Below, in pieces: positions 30,720 through 37,500 of a DNA stretch of 64,000 nt. A program made the position numbers and the translations under genes. The DNA comes from Aquimarina atlantica (GTDB taxonomy: Bacteria > Bacteroidota > Bacteroidia > Flavobacteriales > Flavobacteriaceae): positions 1-64,000 of the forward strand of contig NZ_AQRA01000012.1 in assembly GCF_000626715.1 (NCBI RefSeq), written 5' to 3'. Below the pieces are notes generated by a model that did no database searches, was not told where the DNA came from, and saw only the letters and a program-made list of their open reading frames with translations. Each line of letters opens with the position of its first letter. The first letter of the stretch is position 1.

Positions 30720-32144
30720 ATGTCGGAAATCAAAAATTATAAAGAAGCTTTACAACATCCAATTTTTGATACAATTGCCAAAGCATCAGCAAATCTAGAA
30801 CTAGACAGCTATGTGATCGGAGGATTTGTAAGAGATCATATATTGCAAAGAAAGACTGCTAAAGATATTGACATCGTTGCTGTTGGCAGTGGTATAGCAT
30901 TAGCAAAAGAAGTATCCAATCTTTTACCTGGCAATCCCAAAGTACAGATTTTTAAAACCTATGGTACGGCAATGCTAAAAACCGAGGATATCGAGGTAGA
31001 ATTTGTTGGAGCACGAAAAGAATCTTACGTAGAAAATAGCCGTAATCCCAAAGTAGAAAATGGAAGTTTAGAAGATGACCAAAATAGACGGGATTTTACG
31101 ATTAACACTCTTGCCTTACACCTATCACCAGAAAATTATGGTGAAATATTAGACCCATTTAATGGTTTAGAAGATCTTAAATCAAAAATAATCCGTACTC
31201 CTTTAAATCCTGATATTACCTATTCTGATGATCCTTTAAGAATGATGAGAGCAATTCGTTTTGCTACGCAACTCAACTTCAAAATAGAATCCTCTTCACT
31301 AGAGGCTATTGCAAAAAACAAAGACCGAATTAAAATCATTACCAAAGAACGTATCGTAGATGAGTTACATAAAATTATTTTAAGCGATAAGCCGTCAACA
31401 GGTTTTAAATTACTAGAACAAACTGGTCTTTTGGGTTATATCTTACCCGAACTAATTGATTTAAAAGGTATAGATGAAGTCGAAGGGCAACGACATAAAG
31501 ATAATTTTTACCACACGCTAGAAGTGGTAGATAATATTGCTCAAAACACAGATGATCTCTGGTTACGCTGGGCAGCTTTACTTCATGATATTGGTAAAGC
31601 ACCTACCAAAAAATTTAGCAAAAAAGTAGGGTGGACTTTTCATGGTCATGAATTTGTGGGTTCAAAAATGGTATTTAAACTCTTTAAGCGTTTAAAAATG
31701 CCTTTAAATGAAAAAATGAAATTTGTGCAAAAAATGGTATTAATGAGCTCCAGGCCTATAGTGATTGCAACAGAAGTCACAGATTCTGCAGTTCGAAGAC
31801 TAGTGTTTGATGCAGGAGAATATATTGAAGAATTAATGACACTCTGTGAAGCCGATATTACTACCAAAAACCCTAAACGCTTTAAAAAGTATCACAATAA
31901 TTTCAAGATTGTAAGGCAAAAAATGATTGAAGTTGAAGAGCGAGATCACATTCGTAACTTTCAACCACCAGTTACAGGAGAAGAGATTATGGATACTTTT
32001 AACATCAAACCCTCTCGTGAAATAGGAATCATTAAAGAAGCTATAAAAGAAGCAATTCTAGAAGGCGAAATTCCTAATGAACATGAGGCAGCTTATGCAT
32101 ATATGGTTAAAAAAGGAGAAGAATTAGGACTAAAGAGTAGCTAA
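30720..32144 (+). CDS. cca: CCA tRNA nucleotidyltransferase with HD domain
   Basis: Adds or repairs the 3' CCA end of tRNAs. The 474-residue protein has a class II nucleotidyltransferase head ([25 protein letters not shown] with the catalytic Asp pair, [11 protein letters not shown]), an RNA-binding neck ([15 protein letters not shown]), and a C-terminal HD phosphohydrolase domain ([25 protein letters not shown]). Its stop codon overlaps the left end of an 11-bp inverted repeat that flanks the next gene. Confidence 0.95.
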
Positions 32145-32153
32145 GAATCTAAG

Positions 32154-32185
32154 TTTCAAAGGCTATAAAACTATAGTTTTTGAAA
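32154..32185 (+). terminator. Hairpin after cca, possible terminator
   Basis: Arms TTTCAAAGGCTATA and TATAGTTTTTGAAA pair over 14 positions with two G-T wobbles around loop AAAC, followed by TTTTA. It begins 10 bases after the cca stop and lies inside the inverted-repeat-flanked segment. Confidence 0.5.
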
Positions 32186-32209
32186 TTTTAATTTAATACT
32201 AAATCAATT

Positions 32210-32566
32210 ATGAGTACATTCAGAAACCTGATAATTTGGCAAAAATCGATGGAATTAGTCACTAATATATATCTTGAAACAAAAACATTTCCTAAAGAAG
32301 AATTATATGGCTTAACTTCTCAAATAAGAAGAGCATCAATTTCAGTTCCTAGTAACATCGCTGAAGGTTATGGAAGGTTAGGTAAAAATGATTATTTAAG
32401 ATTTTTAAATATTGCTATCAGTTCACTTTTTGAATTACAGACCCAATTAGAAATAGGAAAGAACCTTTCTTTTATTCAAGAAAACAACTTCAATATTTTG
32501 TTCGAAAACACTAGAGAAATTGAGCGTATGCTAGTTAGTTATATCAAAAAAATCAAAGATTCTTAA
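32210..32566 (+). CDS. Four-helix-bundle protein (23S rRNA intervening-sequence / S23 family)
   Basis: A 118-residue all-helical protein. The signature is RRASISVPSNIAEGYGR followed by LNIAISSLFELQTQLE, as in the S23/IVS proteins first seen inside 23S rRNA intervening sequences and in the structurally related Avd protein of diversity-generating retroelements. It forms pentameric barrels in known relatives and probably binds nucleic acid. No reverse transcriptase or variable repeat is visible nearby. The flanking inverted repeats suggest that it was inserted between cca and ctaA. The biological role is not known. Confidence 0.88.
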   Translation: MSTFRNLIIWQKSMELVTNIYLETKTFPKEELYGLTSQIRRASISVPSNIAEGYGRLGKNDYLRFLNIAISSLFELQTQLEIGKNLSFIQENNFNILFENTREIERMLVSYIKKIKDS

Positions 32567-32630
32567 TAAAATTATACTTTTCTTAGATTCTAAGATTCCT
32601 CATGTCTTAGATTCTTCTTAACAAAAAAAA

Positions 32631-33647
32631 ATGAAAAAAGACAATAAAAAGGTAATATACTGGTTGCTTACAGGCTGCTTATTGATTTTTATTATGGTTA
32701 TTGTTGGTGGAATTACCAGACTTACTCATTCTGGGCTATCGATCTCTAATTATAAATTAATTTCGGGCACTATTCCTCCTATGAATGAAACAGAATGGAA
32801 TGCTGCATTTGATCTGTACAAACAATACCCCGAATATCAAAAGATAAACCATCAATTTACTCTCGAAGATTTTAAAGATATCTATTTCTGGGAATGGCTG
32901 CATAGAGTTATAGGAAGATTTATAGGTGTCGTATTTATCATCCCATTCGTATATTTCTTAATCAGAAAGCAACTTACTAAACCCACTATAAAAAAATCTA
33001 TAATACTAATGCTATTAGGAGGCTTTCAGGGGTTTCTTGGCTGGTTTATGGTAAAAAGCGGGTTAATTGACAGACCCGATGTAAGTCACTATCGTCTTGC
33101 CATGCATCTTACTGCAGCATTCATAACCTTTGCATATACATTTTGGGTAGCTCTTGATCTTATATATCCTAATAAAAAACAAATTGATATTAAATTTAGA
33201 AATCTAATTCGATGGGGATTGGCAGTTCTTTTACTTCAAATTATCTATGGTGCTTTTGTTGCGGGATTAGACGCTGGTTTACTACATAATTATTGGCCAT
33301 TAATGAGTGACAGAACTTTAATTCATGAATCGGTTTATATAGAGCAATCTCCTTTAATCAAGAATTTTGTAGAAGGAAAAAGCGGAGTTCAGTTCGTACA
33401 CCGCTATTTGGCCTATATCGTTGTAGGACTTATTGTCTTTATCTGGTATAGAGGCAAAAGAATTAAAAAAAACAATATTCAATCTAATTCACTAAATACA
33501 TTAGTAATTATTGTTTGTATCCAGTTTTTGCTAGGAATATTTACATTAATTTTTAGAGTCCCCATAGTATTAGGAGTATTACATCAAATTGTTGCTTTTT
33601 TCTTATTAGGGGCAATGACTTTTTCATTACATCGTTTTAGTAAATAA
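32631..33647 (+). CDS. ctaA: Heme A synthase (CtaA/Cox15 family)
   Basis: Oxidises the C8 methyl of heme O to a formyl group, giving heme A for aa3-type cytochrome oxidase. The 338-residue protein has eight predicted transmembrane helices. Conserved motifs are IVGGITRLTHSGLSI, FWEWLHRVIGRFIG (heme-ligand His), HYRLAMHLTAAF, QFVHRYLAYIVV and LGVLHQIVAF, with the four histidine ligands in place. The EYQKINHQFTLEDFK loop is typical of the group without the disulfide cysteines. A promoter-like box for the next gene follows close after its stop. Confidence 0.95.
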   Translation: MKKDNKKVIYWLLTGCLLIFIMVIVGGITRLTHSGLSISNYKLISGTIPPMNETEWNAAFDLYKQYPEYQKINHQFTLEDFKDIYFWEWLHRVIGRFIGVVFIIPFVYFLIRKQLTKPTIKKSIILMLLGGFQGFLGWFMVKSGLIDRPDVSHYRLAMHLTAAFITFAYTFWVALDLIYPNKKQIDIKFRNLIRWGLAVLLLQIIYGAFVAGLDAGLLHNYWPLMSDRTLIHESVYIEQSPLIKNFVEGKSGVQFVHRYLAYIVVGLIVFIWYRGKRIKKNNIQSNSLNTLVIIVCIQFLLGIFTLIFRVPIVLGVLHQIVAFFLLGAMTFSLHRFSK

Positions 33648-33689: not shown

Positions 33690-34205
33690 ATGATATACCG
33701 TTTCAGAATTATCCTGGATACAGAAGAGGATGTATTTAGAGATATTGAAATAGAACAAGATGCAACTTTAGAACAGTTTCATAATGTAATAACCCAATCT
33801 TTTGGTTTTGATGGAACAGAAATGGCTTCTTTTTACATTAGTGATGATCAATGGAATCAAGGAGAAGAAATATCATTATTTGATATGAGTGATGGTAATC
33901 AGCCTGTTAGATTAATGAATGAGACAACTCTTATTGATGTGGCTCATGAGGCTTCTCCCAAGTTAATCTATATCTATGACTTCTTAAGTATGTGGACATT
34001 TTTGGTAGAACTTGCTGAAATTGCTGAATATGAAAACGGAAGAGAATATCCAAATGTAATGTATATTCATGGTCAAATACCTGATCAGGCACCTGATAAA
34101 GAGTTTAAAGCAGACGAATTAGATGATTTTAATGAAGGTGAAAATAAAGATTTTATGGATCTTGATGAATATGAAGACCTCGGGTTTGATGAGAATTGGA
34201 ATTAA
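33690..34205 (+). CDS. Plasmid pRiA4b ORF-3-like protein
   Basis: A 171-residue acidic cytoplasmic protein of the PF07929-like family: MIYRFRIILDTEEDVFRDIEI, then EQFHNVITQSFGFDGTEMASFY and IYIYDFLSMWTFLVELAE. The C-terminal third is a strongly acidic tail (Asp/Glu/Asn-rich). The family, sometimes called IS1096 passenger-like, is widespread on chromosomes; no insertion sequence is seen here. Function is unknown. Confidence 0.85.
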   Translation: MIYRFRIILDTEEDVFRDIEIEQDATLEQFHNVITQSFGFDGTEMASFYISDDQWNQGEEISLFDMSDGNQPVRLMNETTLIDVAHEASPKLIYIYDFLSMWTFLVELAEIAEYENGREYPNVMYIHGQIPDQAPDKEFKADELDDFNEGENKDFMDLDEYEDLGFDENWN

Positions 34206-34227
34206 AATTTAACTATTAATTAAAAAG

Positions 34228-34247
34228 ATCCCAGCCTTCGCTGGGAT
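34228..34247. repeat. Palindromic REP-like hairpin just upstream of the nucleoid-protein gene
   Basis: Perfect 8-bp arms ATCCCAGC and GCTGGGAT around loop CTTC, followed by GATGAC. It resembles the short palindromic units dispersed in many bacterial genomes. It sits 12 bases before the ATG at 34260. On the minus strand a T run follows, but no gene is transcribed in that direction here. Confidence 0.55.
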
Positions 34248-34259
34248 GACATACATGTC

Positions 34260-35318
34260 ATGATCAACTTATATAGCACTCAAATCGAATCATTATCGGT
34301 TCACCGGGTTGGAAACAAGAATAAAAATGAAAATATATTCTTGTCAGAATCACCATATGTCCTTAATGACGAATTAACTGCACTTCTAAAAGAATATTTT
34401 TTTAAACCTTTTAGAGAAAAAGAAGAGAATTATTTTCAATTTGCTAATGAAGTAGATATAGAATTTAATCCACTGTTTAAAATTGCAACCGAAATTTTTG
34501 AACACCCTTCTTCGGTTCATGAAAAATCTAAAAGAATTGCTTCATTATTATATGAGCAATCACAACACCCGCATATTAAAAGTGGTGAAGTATACGTCGC
34601 TTATTTAGACAATGTGACTATCGATAATGAAAAAGTTGATGCTATTGGTATCTTTAAATCAGAATTAAAACATGATTTCCTTCAGTTTGAAGAAAAAGAA
34701 GCTGATATCGAATTATTAATTCAACAAGGTGTAAACCTTAATAAACTAGATAAAGGTTGTCTAATTTTTAATCATAAAAAAGAAGAAGGATATAAAATCC
34801 TTTCTATAGACTCTAACCGTTACGATACCAAATATTGGTTAGAACACTTTTTAGGCGTAGAGGCTTTTGCCGATGAGAATTTTTACACAAAGAAGTATAT
34901 GAAATTCTGCCAGGATTTTGCAAAAGATGTGGTCCTTCCTGCCGAAGACAAAAAAGAAGAAGTGATGTTTATGAACCGTGCAGTAAACCACTTTGCCAAA
35001 AATGATGAATTTGAAGAGTCTGCATTTTTAAATGATGTGATTGATAATCCTGATTTGATTCCAGAATTTAAACATTACAAAGTAGAAAAAGCGCCAAAAT
35101 ATCAGATCGAGGATCTTACCACTTTTCCTATCGCCAATAATGCCGTAACTGCTGCTCGTAAAAAGATGAAAAATGTCATCAACCTAGATACTAATGTGCA
35201 GATAAAGATGGATTTTATCAACCCAGAGTCTGCAGAAAAATTTGTAGAAAAAGGATGGGACGAAGAAAAGCAAATGTATTACTATTTGGTATATTTCAAT
35301 AAAGAACAAAAAACCTAA
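34260..35318 (+). CDS. Nucleoid-associated protein (NdpA/YejK-like)
   Basis: A 352-residue cytoplasmic protein of the 37-kDa nucleoid-associated family. Typical segments are FFKPFREKEENYFQF, SGEVYVAYLDNVTIDNEKVDAIGIFKSE and LDKGCLIFNHKKEEGYKILSID, followed by KYWLEHFLGVE. The family binds DNA in the nucleoid. The start codon overlaps a TCATGA context 12 bases after a strong hairpin, which could influence translation. It is followed by the TauE/SafE gene 28 bases later. Confidence 0.88.
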   Translation: MINLYSTQIESLSVHRVGNKNKNENIFLSESPYVLNDELTALLKEYFFKPFREKEENYFQFANEVDIEFNPLFKIATEIFEHPSSVHEKSKRIASLLYEQSQHPHIKSGEVYVAYLDNVTIDNEKVDAIGIFKSELKHDFLQFEEKEADIELLIQQGVNLNKLDKGCLIFNHKKEEGYKILSIDSNRYDTKYWLEHFLGVEAFADENFYTKKYMKFCQDFAKDVVLPAEDKKEEVMFMNRAVNHFAKNDEFEESAFLNDVIDNPDLIPEFKHYKVEKAPKYQIEDLTTFPIANNAVTAARKKMKNVINLDTNVQIKMDFINPESAEKFVEKGWDEEKQMYYYLVYFNKEQKT

Positions 35319-37380: not shown

Positions 37381-37500
37381 AAACAATAATCTACAGCAAA
37401 AACATACACTACATTCAACAAATAACCATCTACATCAAAAAATATACACTTACACTCAACAAACAATCAACAACTATCAACTTTCTTGTAACAAAACCCT
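37381..37500. other. G-depleted tract in the divergent intergenic region
   Basis: Within 120 bases the plus strand contains only two G but 32 C. It includes imperfect direct repeats around ATTCAACAAATAACCATC and CTCAACAAACAATCAAC. It lies between the kinase-like gene (minus) and the ABC exporter pair (plus). No coding frame is evident on either strand. Confidence 0.6.

Follow-up and report, generated by a model that had tools for sequence, protein, structure and literature searches.

Inverted arrays of a short unit frame S23-family genes in operon gaps of Aquimarina atlantica and other bacteria

A gene for a small four-helix-bundle protein of the S23 family lies between cca and ctaA in a 64,000-nucleotide (nt) stretch of the Aquimarina atlantica genome (contig NZ_AQRA01000012.1, positions 1 to 64,000; hereafter the window). 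It had originally been predicted, from the letters alone, to be a possible mini-mobile cassette bracketed by exact 11-bp inverted repeats. We found that the gene is framed by two arrays of a short unit in inverted orientation, of which the exact 11-bp pair is only a part, and that this feature is common in the S23 family. The architecture recurs across the family, though not at every copy: an S23 gene in a gap between co-directional operon genes has on either side an array of a 7- or 8-nt unit peculiar to the locus, the two arrays being inverted relative to each other. For the window locus we consider the balance about even that it is one copy of a family-wide operon-gap cassette, the inverted arms of which are renewed and the S23 protein of which aids copying or re-insertion.

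Inverted arms frame S23 genes

At the window locus, AAGAATCTAAG stands at 32143-32153, its first letters within the cca stop codon (TAA, 32142-32144), and its exact inverted copy at 32606-32616. The original prediction described this frame correctly, although the 11-mers are the tip of inverted arrays. The 13-base palindrome that it placed beside the right copy is present at 32582-32594 (CTTAGATTCTAAG), as a near-palindrome with a mismatched central base. The left arm (32141-32153, + strand; CTAAGAATCTAAG) holds one full unit and part of a unit, and the right arm (32580-32616, + strand; CTTAGATTCTAAGATTCCTCATGTCTTAGATTCTT), inverted relative to the left, is a degenerate tandem array of an 8-nt unit (4.6 copies, 67% matches). 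Within the window the exact 11-mer occurs at these two places only. Of three further copies, each with one mismatch, one lies in the right arm and the other two at other places, and the total of five does not exceed chance expectation (mean 3.55, with 5 reached in 26 of 100 shuffles). Because the copy number is at chance level, the case rests on the position of the repeats around the gene and not on their number.

To score such arms across S23 loci, we compared the 120 nt before each start codon with the reversed 120 nt after the stop codon, and set the score of each own pair against those of swapped pairs, with 50 genes of the window as controls. In a test of 38 of the 40 loci from the own genome and the genus (L010 and L038 were left out as unparsed), own pairs scored a mean of 24.9, compared with 17.4 for swapped pairs. 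The window locus scored 28 against a swapped mean of 18.5, above all 37 swapped right flanks, in an alignment that extends into the cca coding sequence. A larger test started from 150 loci, of which 143 were full length, 141 had usable flanks and 116 remained after removal of near-duplicates, the window locus (L002) being represented there by its orthologue L052 (score 22). At the settings of this test the window locus itself scored 25, between the 95th (21) and the 99th (27) percentile of swapped scores.

Over the 116 loci, own inverted scores averaged 29.1 and swapped scores 15.2; the own score exceeded the 95th percentile of swapped scores in 86 loci and the 99th in 58, and beat every swapped arm in 43. 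In direct orientation the corresponding numbers were 18, 13 and 14, and among the control genes 4 of 50 passed the 95th percentile and none the 99th. Matching arms (above the 95th percentile) were found in every group of loci: own genome (5/8), genus (15/19), phylum (13/23) and named (53/66). They were also present in 24 of the 30 loci titled as non-Bacteroidota, 21 of which passed the 99th percentile; these titles include KSB1, Planctomycetes, Acidobacteria, Clostridia and a cyanobacterium, and some titles of metagenome-assembled genomes may be wrong. S23 loci were found in many phyla beyond Bacteroidota. Within Bacteroidota, S23 genes were detected in 49 of 52 genomes of the genus sample and in 232 of 296 genomes of the phylum sample at E<=0.001 (220 over the profile cut-off).

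The own genome (5.69 Mb, 39 contigs) carries 11 S23 genes, and 7 of them have arms above the 95th percentile. The repeat copies expected at paralogues thus exist as analogous repeats, not as a fixed end sequence: the unit is locus-specific and differs from gene to gene, being CTAGA-type at the fadB-/fadA-like pair, GGTATCAG-type between thiG and thiH and TGATTTAATGAA-type at another locus, and by eye no end sequence is common to all 11 copies. (Neighbour names of the trp, his, thi, suf and fad type were read off translations and are not database calls.) At the thi locus (L004, oriented 1839-1880) the right arm seems to give the thiH-like downstream gene a new start codon and N-terminal residues (MTDARYPLPDTSF...). 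At another locus of the genus, L033 in genome G046, the S23 flanks are long direct repeats (direct score 91, inverted 15).

Cyanobacteria were sampled through plasmids (8 of 31 plasmid records) and one genome locus. By eye, 7 of the 8 plasmid-borne loci have matching short-repeat arms, and L281 is equivocal; at L285, for instance, GGGAACA units lie 5' of the S23 gene and TGTTCCC units 3' of it. On the Pseudanabaena galeata plasmid (L288), the S23 gene (1801-2160) lies between cas6 and cas4, adjoined on both sides by 7-nt arrays of AAAAGCT and AAAAGCC type in the same orientation, with an inverted array further left. The plasmid genes are annotated as four helix bundle protein, S23 ribosomal protein or hypothetical protein.

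Period, polarity and operon setting

A significant tandem period was present in 102 of 232 S23 flanks: 7 (48 flanks), 8 (20), 14 (19), 15 (2), 16 (12) or 17 (1). The periods are therefore 7, 8 and sums of them, with 7, 8, 14 or 16 accounting for 99 of the 102; the window arm itself has period 8. Control stretches from the same loci were periodic in 9 of 445 cases (period 7 in four, 8 in three, 9 and 16 in one each), and none of 39 window intergenes was periodic. The arrays are also polar. Among the 86 loci that pass the 95th percentile, G outnumbers C in the left arm of 78, and C outnumbers G in that of 3. The left arm is G-rich, the right arm is C-rich and the G-rich strand reads into the S23 gene. 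The gene is co-directional with both neighbours in 116 of 129 loci (three with far neighbours were set aside), with median gaps of 70 and 43 nt; as a baseline, 27 of 53 consecutive gene triples in the window lie on one strand.

Arms of one locus change together

We compared 210 pairs of loci at the same site, with both neighbours homologous, drawn from 103 loci with both arms non-coding; the pairs are not independent, as loci recur across them. Where the host genes were less than 60% identical, the score between the two arms of one locus was 24.6 and that between orthologous arms 13.4 (within-locus greater in 8 of 8 pairs). At 60-75% identity the scores were 30.3 and 18.6 (65/73), and at 75-90% they were 27.3 and 22.3 (70/86). 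Only above 90% did the order turn, to 31.0 within the locus and 44.1 between orthologues (within-locus greater in only 19/43). Over the same bins the S23 proteins kept an identity-like score of 0.47 to 0.76. An arm is thus soon unlike its orthologue yet still matched to its partner. In some close pairs the arms differ in length by entire units (7 nt at thiG|thiH, 14 nt at hisH|hisA), as expected of slippage. At some sites independent re-insertion into the same gap may be an alternative to concerted change: at fadB|fadA the S23 protein of genome G000 is only 39% identical to that of G001, and the unit is different.

The S23 protein itself is under purifying selection. dN/dS was 0.04-0.12 at the window site and mostly 0.04-0.27 overall, reaching 0.35-0.55 in four pairs (two pairs were not computable); the gene shows no hypervariability. 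Between different sites, arm similarity correlated with protein similarity (r=0.16 in 86 loci; the largest of 1000 permutations was 0.088), indicating that the unit travels with the gene, weakly, and then drifts.

Occupancy and origin of the cca-ctaA copy

Two gaps of this gene row were followed across genomes: gap A, after cca, and gap B, two genes downstream (34206-34259 on the + strand, between the genes at 33690-34205 and 34260-35318), which has no S23 gene in the window. The genomes had been picked for having ctaA or an S23 gene in this row, so the counts are not frequencies. Gap A is occupied in 6 of the 20 genomes with cca in the stretch, and gap B holds a sister S23 cassette in 9 of 21, including G001, one being a fragment; the gene after gap A has no match to the window ctaA in 7 of the 20. 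Three genomes whose host proteins are 95-99% identical differ in occupancy: only gap A is filled in G000, only gap B in G001 and neither in G002. Empty cca-ctaA sites, which a cassette predicts, thus exist in G001 and G002, where ctaA is 97 and 96% identical. Nine of the ten other own S23 sites, compared in five genomes, were equally patchy. By eye, remnants are also seen: in gap B of G019 both arms persist together with the first codons of the S23 gene, gap A of the same genome has CTAAGAATCTAAG without an S23 gene, and gap A of G016 has TTGATGG copies. We noticed no target-site duplication by eye (nine sites in five genomes, and the two gaps in 21 genomes), and no systematic test was made.

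The gap after cca is also filled in G044, G059, G048, G036 and G014. The cca-ctaA copy is therefore not a fresh insertion; it has been inherited and lost, and possibly also moved. In keeping with the prediction, the copy behaves as a discrete cassette, given the empty sites and the analogous repeats at paralogues. Gap B is filled in Flavobacterium too (L107-L112, judged by neighbours), and in the S23 tree the Aquimarina copies of gaps A and B, together with L033 from another site, stand apart from four Flavobacterium copies (94/96). From these two observations, the window copy probably derives from an older gap B resident within the genus, a route suggested by trees with few well-supported inner branches (3 of 23 starred in the S23 tree and 3 of 18 in the host tree). 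Branches inside the Aquimarina group of gap A and gap B copies are mostly unresolved in the S23 tree, and on the host tree the clustering of occupancy groups did not exceed that of shuffled labels (76 of 200 shuffles were as low).

We had considered that the unit derives from the target, as CTATTAACC/CTATTGACC occur at the empty sig|fecR site and CTAAGATTCT at the empty cca-ctaA site. This was dropped as evidence: sig|fecR is filled in the more distant relatives G036 and G051, and cca-ctaA in G044, G059 and G048, and so these units are better read as scars of lost cassettes. One further gap, in G036 (L265:7371-7538), one gene upstream of an S23 gene, has a G-rich and then a C-rich short-repeat array without a gene, and looks like a geneless version of the cassette.

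Heptad arrays and the S23 content of genomes

In samples of 100-200 kb per Bacteroidota genome, strong arrays of period 7 or 8 (Tandem Repeats Finder (TRF) score >=40) numbered 0 in 900 kb from five S23-free genomes and 21 in 1000 kb from five S23-rich ones, which contributed six, three, six, none and six; 19 of the 21 were not beside an S23 gene. This contrast appears only at score 40. At score 30, the S23-free genomes also have weak 7/8-nt arrays (three in G015 and two in G060, in 300 kb), and the S23-rich G014 and G036 have 5 and 12 rows, some overlapping, in 400 kb. The polarity of the solo arrays involved too few cases to carry weight: after a stop codon, G exceeds C in six and C exceeds G in one, with one equal; before a start codon, C exceeds G in five and G exceeds C in four; two arrays lie inside open reading frames.

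The 296 Bacteroidota genomes were also scored for a heptad pattern consisting of three copies of TAGTNNT, forward or reversed. Of the 232 genomes with S23, 93 had the pattern, as did 7 of the 64 without (Fisher p=5e-6), and it rose with S23 copy number (taken among the best 15 scored candidates per genome) from 7/64 in genomes with none through 13/69, 19/58 and 30/56 to 31/49, that is, 11, 19, 33, 54 and 63%. With the same letters, the forward pattern was found at period 7 in 62 genomes, at period 10 in 3 and at period 6 in 5; the reversed forms, at 68, 24 and 40 genomes, respectively, are a weaker control. In either form, the period-10 control occurred in 25 of 232 genomes with S23 and 2 of 64 without (p=0.08), and the period-6 control in 36 of 232 and 7 of 64 (p=0.43).

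Several arrays stood out by themselves. The first 200 bases of contig C21 of the own genome (L356) hold about 16 GTATTGA copies followed by heptads of AACTAAC/TAACTGA type, and this contig start is an assembly break within a heptad array. The 2.8-Mb genome G245 has 148 overlapping TAGTNNT-pattern matches and only 4 S23 genes. G199, an S23-free genome of the same family, has 35 period-9 arrays in 200 kb (L289-L298), compared with 0-2 in the other nine samples.

Heptameric repeats have been described before, in the portions of the literature consulted, as GGGAATC and GGGGA(C/T)T in Xanthomonas and Nostoc, with no known role (PMC4692102), and as TAACTGA in Beggiatoaceae, spread without an evident mechanism (PMC4679880). 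As described in those portions, they resemble S23 arms in being mostly intergenic and near start or stop codons and in varying in copy number (PMC4692102, PMC4679880); their period of 7 is one of the periods of S23 arms, that of the window arm being 8. In Xanthomonas and Nostoc, repeats that follow a stop codon have the G-rich strand as sense and those that precede a start codon have it as antisense, as in S23 arms (PMC4692102). They were described without S23, the main texts of both papers giving 0 word matches for S23, helix bundle or four helix. The only explanation that we met for the excess of 7-nt repeats, in the parts of these two papers drawn on here, is a polymerase(-footprint) hypothesis. 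In the literature searched, the scope of which excluded most subscription journals, we found no publication that ties S23 genes to heptamers or tandem repeats.

The window locus and known S23 systems

The window gene (+ strand, ATG at 32210, stop ending at 32566) encodes 118 amino acids and matches the S23/23S_rRNA_IVP profiles far over their curated cut-offs (PF05635, E=2.5e-39, 134.2 bits against 33.8; TIGR02436, E=2e-39, 134.2 against 24), in agreement with the predicted family. By sequence, its PDB relatives are 2gsc and 2rld only, and it had no phage match in 50,697 records at E 1e-5. The gene lies downstream of cca, for the tRNA nucleotidyltransferase (30720-32144, +), the TAA of which overlaps the left arm, and upstream of ctaA, for heme A synthase (32631-33647, +). 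Between the left arm and the gene, a leader hairpin with a 17-bp stem (32145-32194, +; loop 32168-32171) is predicted by RNA folding (z -5.6; 0 of 200 shuffles as good). It is kept in the orthologues of G044 (z -4.9) and G059 (z -2.7) and absent in G048 (z +1.2). Such hairpins are not general at S23 loci, with z<-2 in 11 of 81 left leaders and 13 of 77 right ones (coding control, 4 of 103). Elsewhere in the window, AT-rich tandem repeats of about 20 and 10 nt at 37398-37481 have no visible relation to S23.

S23 frames are known from intervening sequences (IVSs) of 23S rRNA genes. These end in inverted repeats, which in Coxiella form a 28-bp stem, and RNase III cuts them out of the transcript, according to the sections of PMC4990558 used here. 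On the same partial basis, the window cassette shares with them the protein family, the short length, the terminal inverted repeats and a sporadic distribution (PMC4990558). It differs in lying in a protein-gene gap, between cca and ctaA and not inside a 23S rRNA gene, in having arrays of 7/8-nt units as ends and in showing no RNA-pairing signature. The match to the Avd/bAvd accessory proteins of diversity-generating retroelements (DGRs) is weak and below cut-off (bAvd 30.2 bits against 40; DivGenRetAVD 28.4 against 80). Unlike a DGR, the protein is conserved and not diversified, and the genome is without a reverse transcriptase, as the prediction had noted for the locus: PF00078 gave 0 matches at E<=0.001 in the whole genome, with 3 of 14 control genomes positive.

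Eighteen S23 genes have been reported in cas loci, often with cas4 or cas6, in the part of PMC3936711 consulted, and L288, between cas6 and cas4, is like them in this respect. Given the long 7-nt arrays beside it, the L288 gene looks like an operon-gap cassette and not a cas gene, and the S23 genes reported in cas loci may likewise be cassettes. Four helix bundle genes have also been described, in the section of PMC5524665 seen, adjoining guanylate kinase and nicotinate-nucleotide adenylyltransferase genes.

Discussion

We propose that the cassette would be read from the host promoter while it sits in a small gap between co-directional operon genes, and that the arms would be the working ends of the element. 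Their renewal would take place in the DNA, through slippage of units and through foldback (hairpin) copying, in which one arm serves as template for the other. An S23 oligomer might bind the repeated unit, as DNA or as transcript, and might help the ends to be copied or the cassette to enter a further gap. A role of S23 in binding, making or moving the arrays is what we infer. With its small S23 gene enclosed by matching ends, the cassette works like an IVS that has its place in protein operons; it is neither an rRNA IVS nor a DGR. A bolder version, which we hold tentatively and with clearly less confidence, is that S23 proteins make or maintain 7/8-nt arrays in trans and are the agent behind the bacterial heptamer excess, with the cassette a selfish element, the ends of which are rewritten, arm by matching arm, from a short unit.

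A number of points weigh against this proposal. The cassette codes for no nuclease or recombinase. Among the compared sites there is no transposition event with a clean before and after; the best insertion candidate, sig|fecR, is empty in four of four close relatives and occupied in G036 and G051, so that the empty sites there may be losses, and vertical inheritance with loss accounts for much of the occupancy. Thirty of the 116 loci fall below the 95th percentile, including 10 of 23 in the phylum group, as do four of the 11 own copies (L003, L007, L008 and L009). G014, with 20 S23 copies, has no strong array in the 200 kb sampled, a zero that refers to solo arrays only, as the sample left out 100-140 and 200-220 kb of the contig, where two S23 genes lie. 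Seven of 64 S23-free genomes have the heptad pattern, and the association of arrays with S23 consists of raw counts that ignore phylogeny, GC content and genome size.

The same architecture could be explained at the RNA level, as an IVS in which the arms pair in the operon mRNA, RNase III cuts and the S23 message is separated; selection for pairing would then produce the covariation of the arms. The rRNA IVSs with an S23 gene, terminal inverted repeats and RNase III excision, as covered in the part of PMC4990558 cited above, provide a precedent, and the cassettes do lie in co-directional gene rows. However, G:U pairs are not in excess over A:C mismatches (53 against 71 in 86 loci, p=0.13; 41 against 48 in 58 loci), so RNA pairing is unsupported as the cause of the matching arms, there being no strand-specific signature, and a DNA-level cause is preferred. 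The window arms are moreover short (11 exact bp) and about 450 nt apart, and pairing requires neither the 7/8-nt period nor the left-side G. We regard this account as unlikely. A little less probable still is a domesticated autoregulator: an S23 oligomer bound to its own unit, in the transcript or in DNA, would regulate the operon, and the arms would be coevolving binding arrays. Regular spacing is typical of oligomer-bound arrays, and both the strong purifying selection on S23 and the correlation of arm with protein similarity across sites fit such a role. Against it, same-site arms are barely above background (13 to 22, compared with a swapped mean of 15) where the proteins are about 47-63% identical, occupancy varies among genomes with host genes about 97% identical, and the same gap may carry distant S23 genes, as at fadB|fadA.

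Alternatively, operon gaps might passively collect slippage-prone 7-nt repeats for polymerase reasons, with S23 genes merely sitting or inserting there. This agrees with the published polymerase-footprint idea, as presented in the parts of PMC4679880 and PMC4692102 available to us, with the solo arrays (19 of 21 arrays) that have no S23 gene nearby and with the weak arrays of S23-free genomes at the looser threshold. It is nevertheless improbable, as strong arrays were confined to the S23-rich samples (0 in 900 kb against 21 in 1000 kb), the heptad pattern rises with S23 copy number (11 to 63%) whereas the period-6 control does not differ (7/64 against 36/232, p=0.43), and the two arrays of one S23 gene match each other and not those of other loci. 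Least probable by far is an ordinary non-autonomous transposon, the terminal inverted repeats of which would be recognised by a transposase acting in trans. Inverted repeats on both sides of one gene are what such an element would have, yet by eye the 11 own copies share no end sequence, arms match their own partners better than swapped ones, units change from species to species and, where sites were compared by eye, we noticed no target duplication.

S23 genes are common. What is new here is the make-up of the ends, with 7/8-nt units that are locus-specific and change in concert, their spread across bacteria and an apparent link to the general stock of heptamers. It is unusual for the ends of a mobile element to stay matched to each other while diverging from their orthologues. 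The finding also cautions against counting S23 genes that lie in cas, trp, his or thi operons as members of those pathways. If the link to heptamers is true, it would provide one testable context for both the function of S23 proteins and the over-representation of 7-nt tandem repeats in bacteria.

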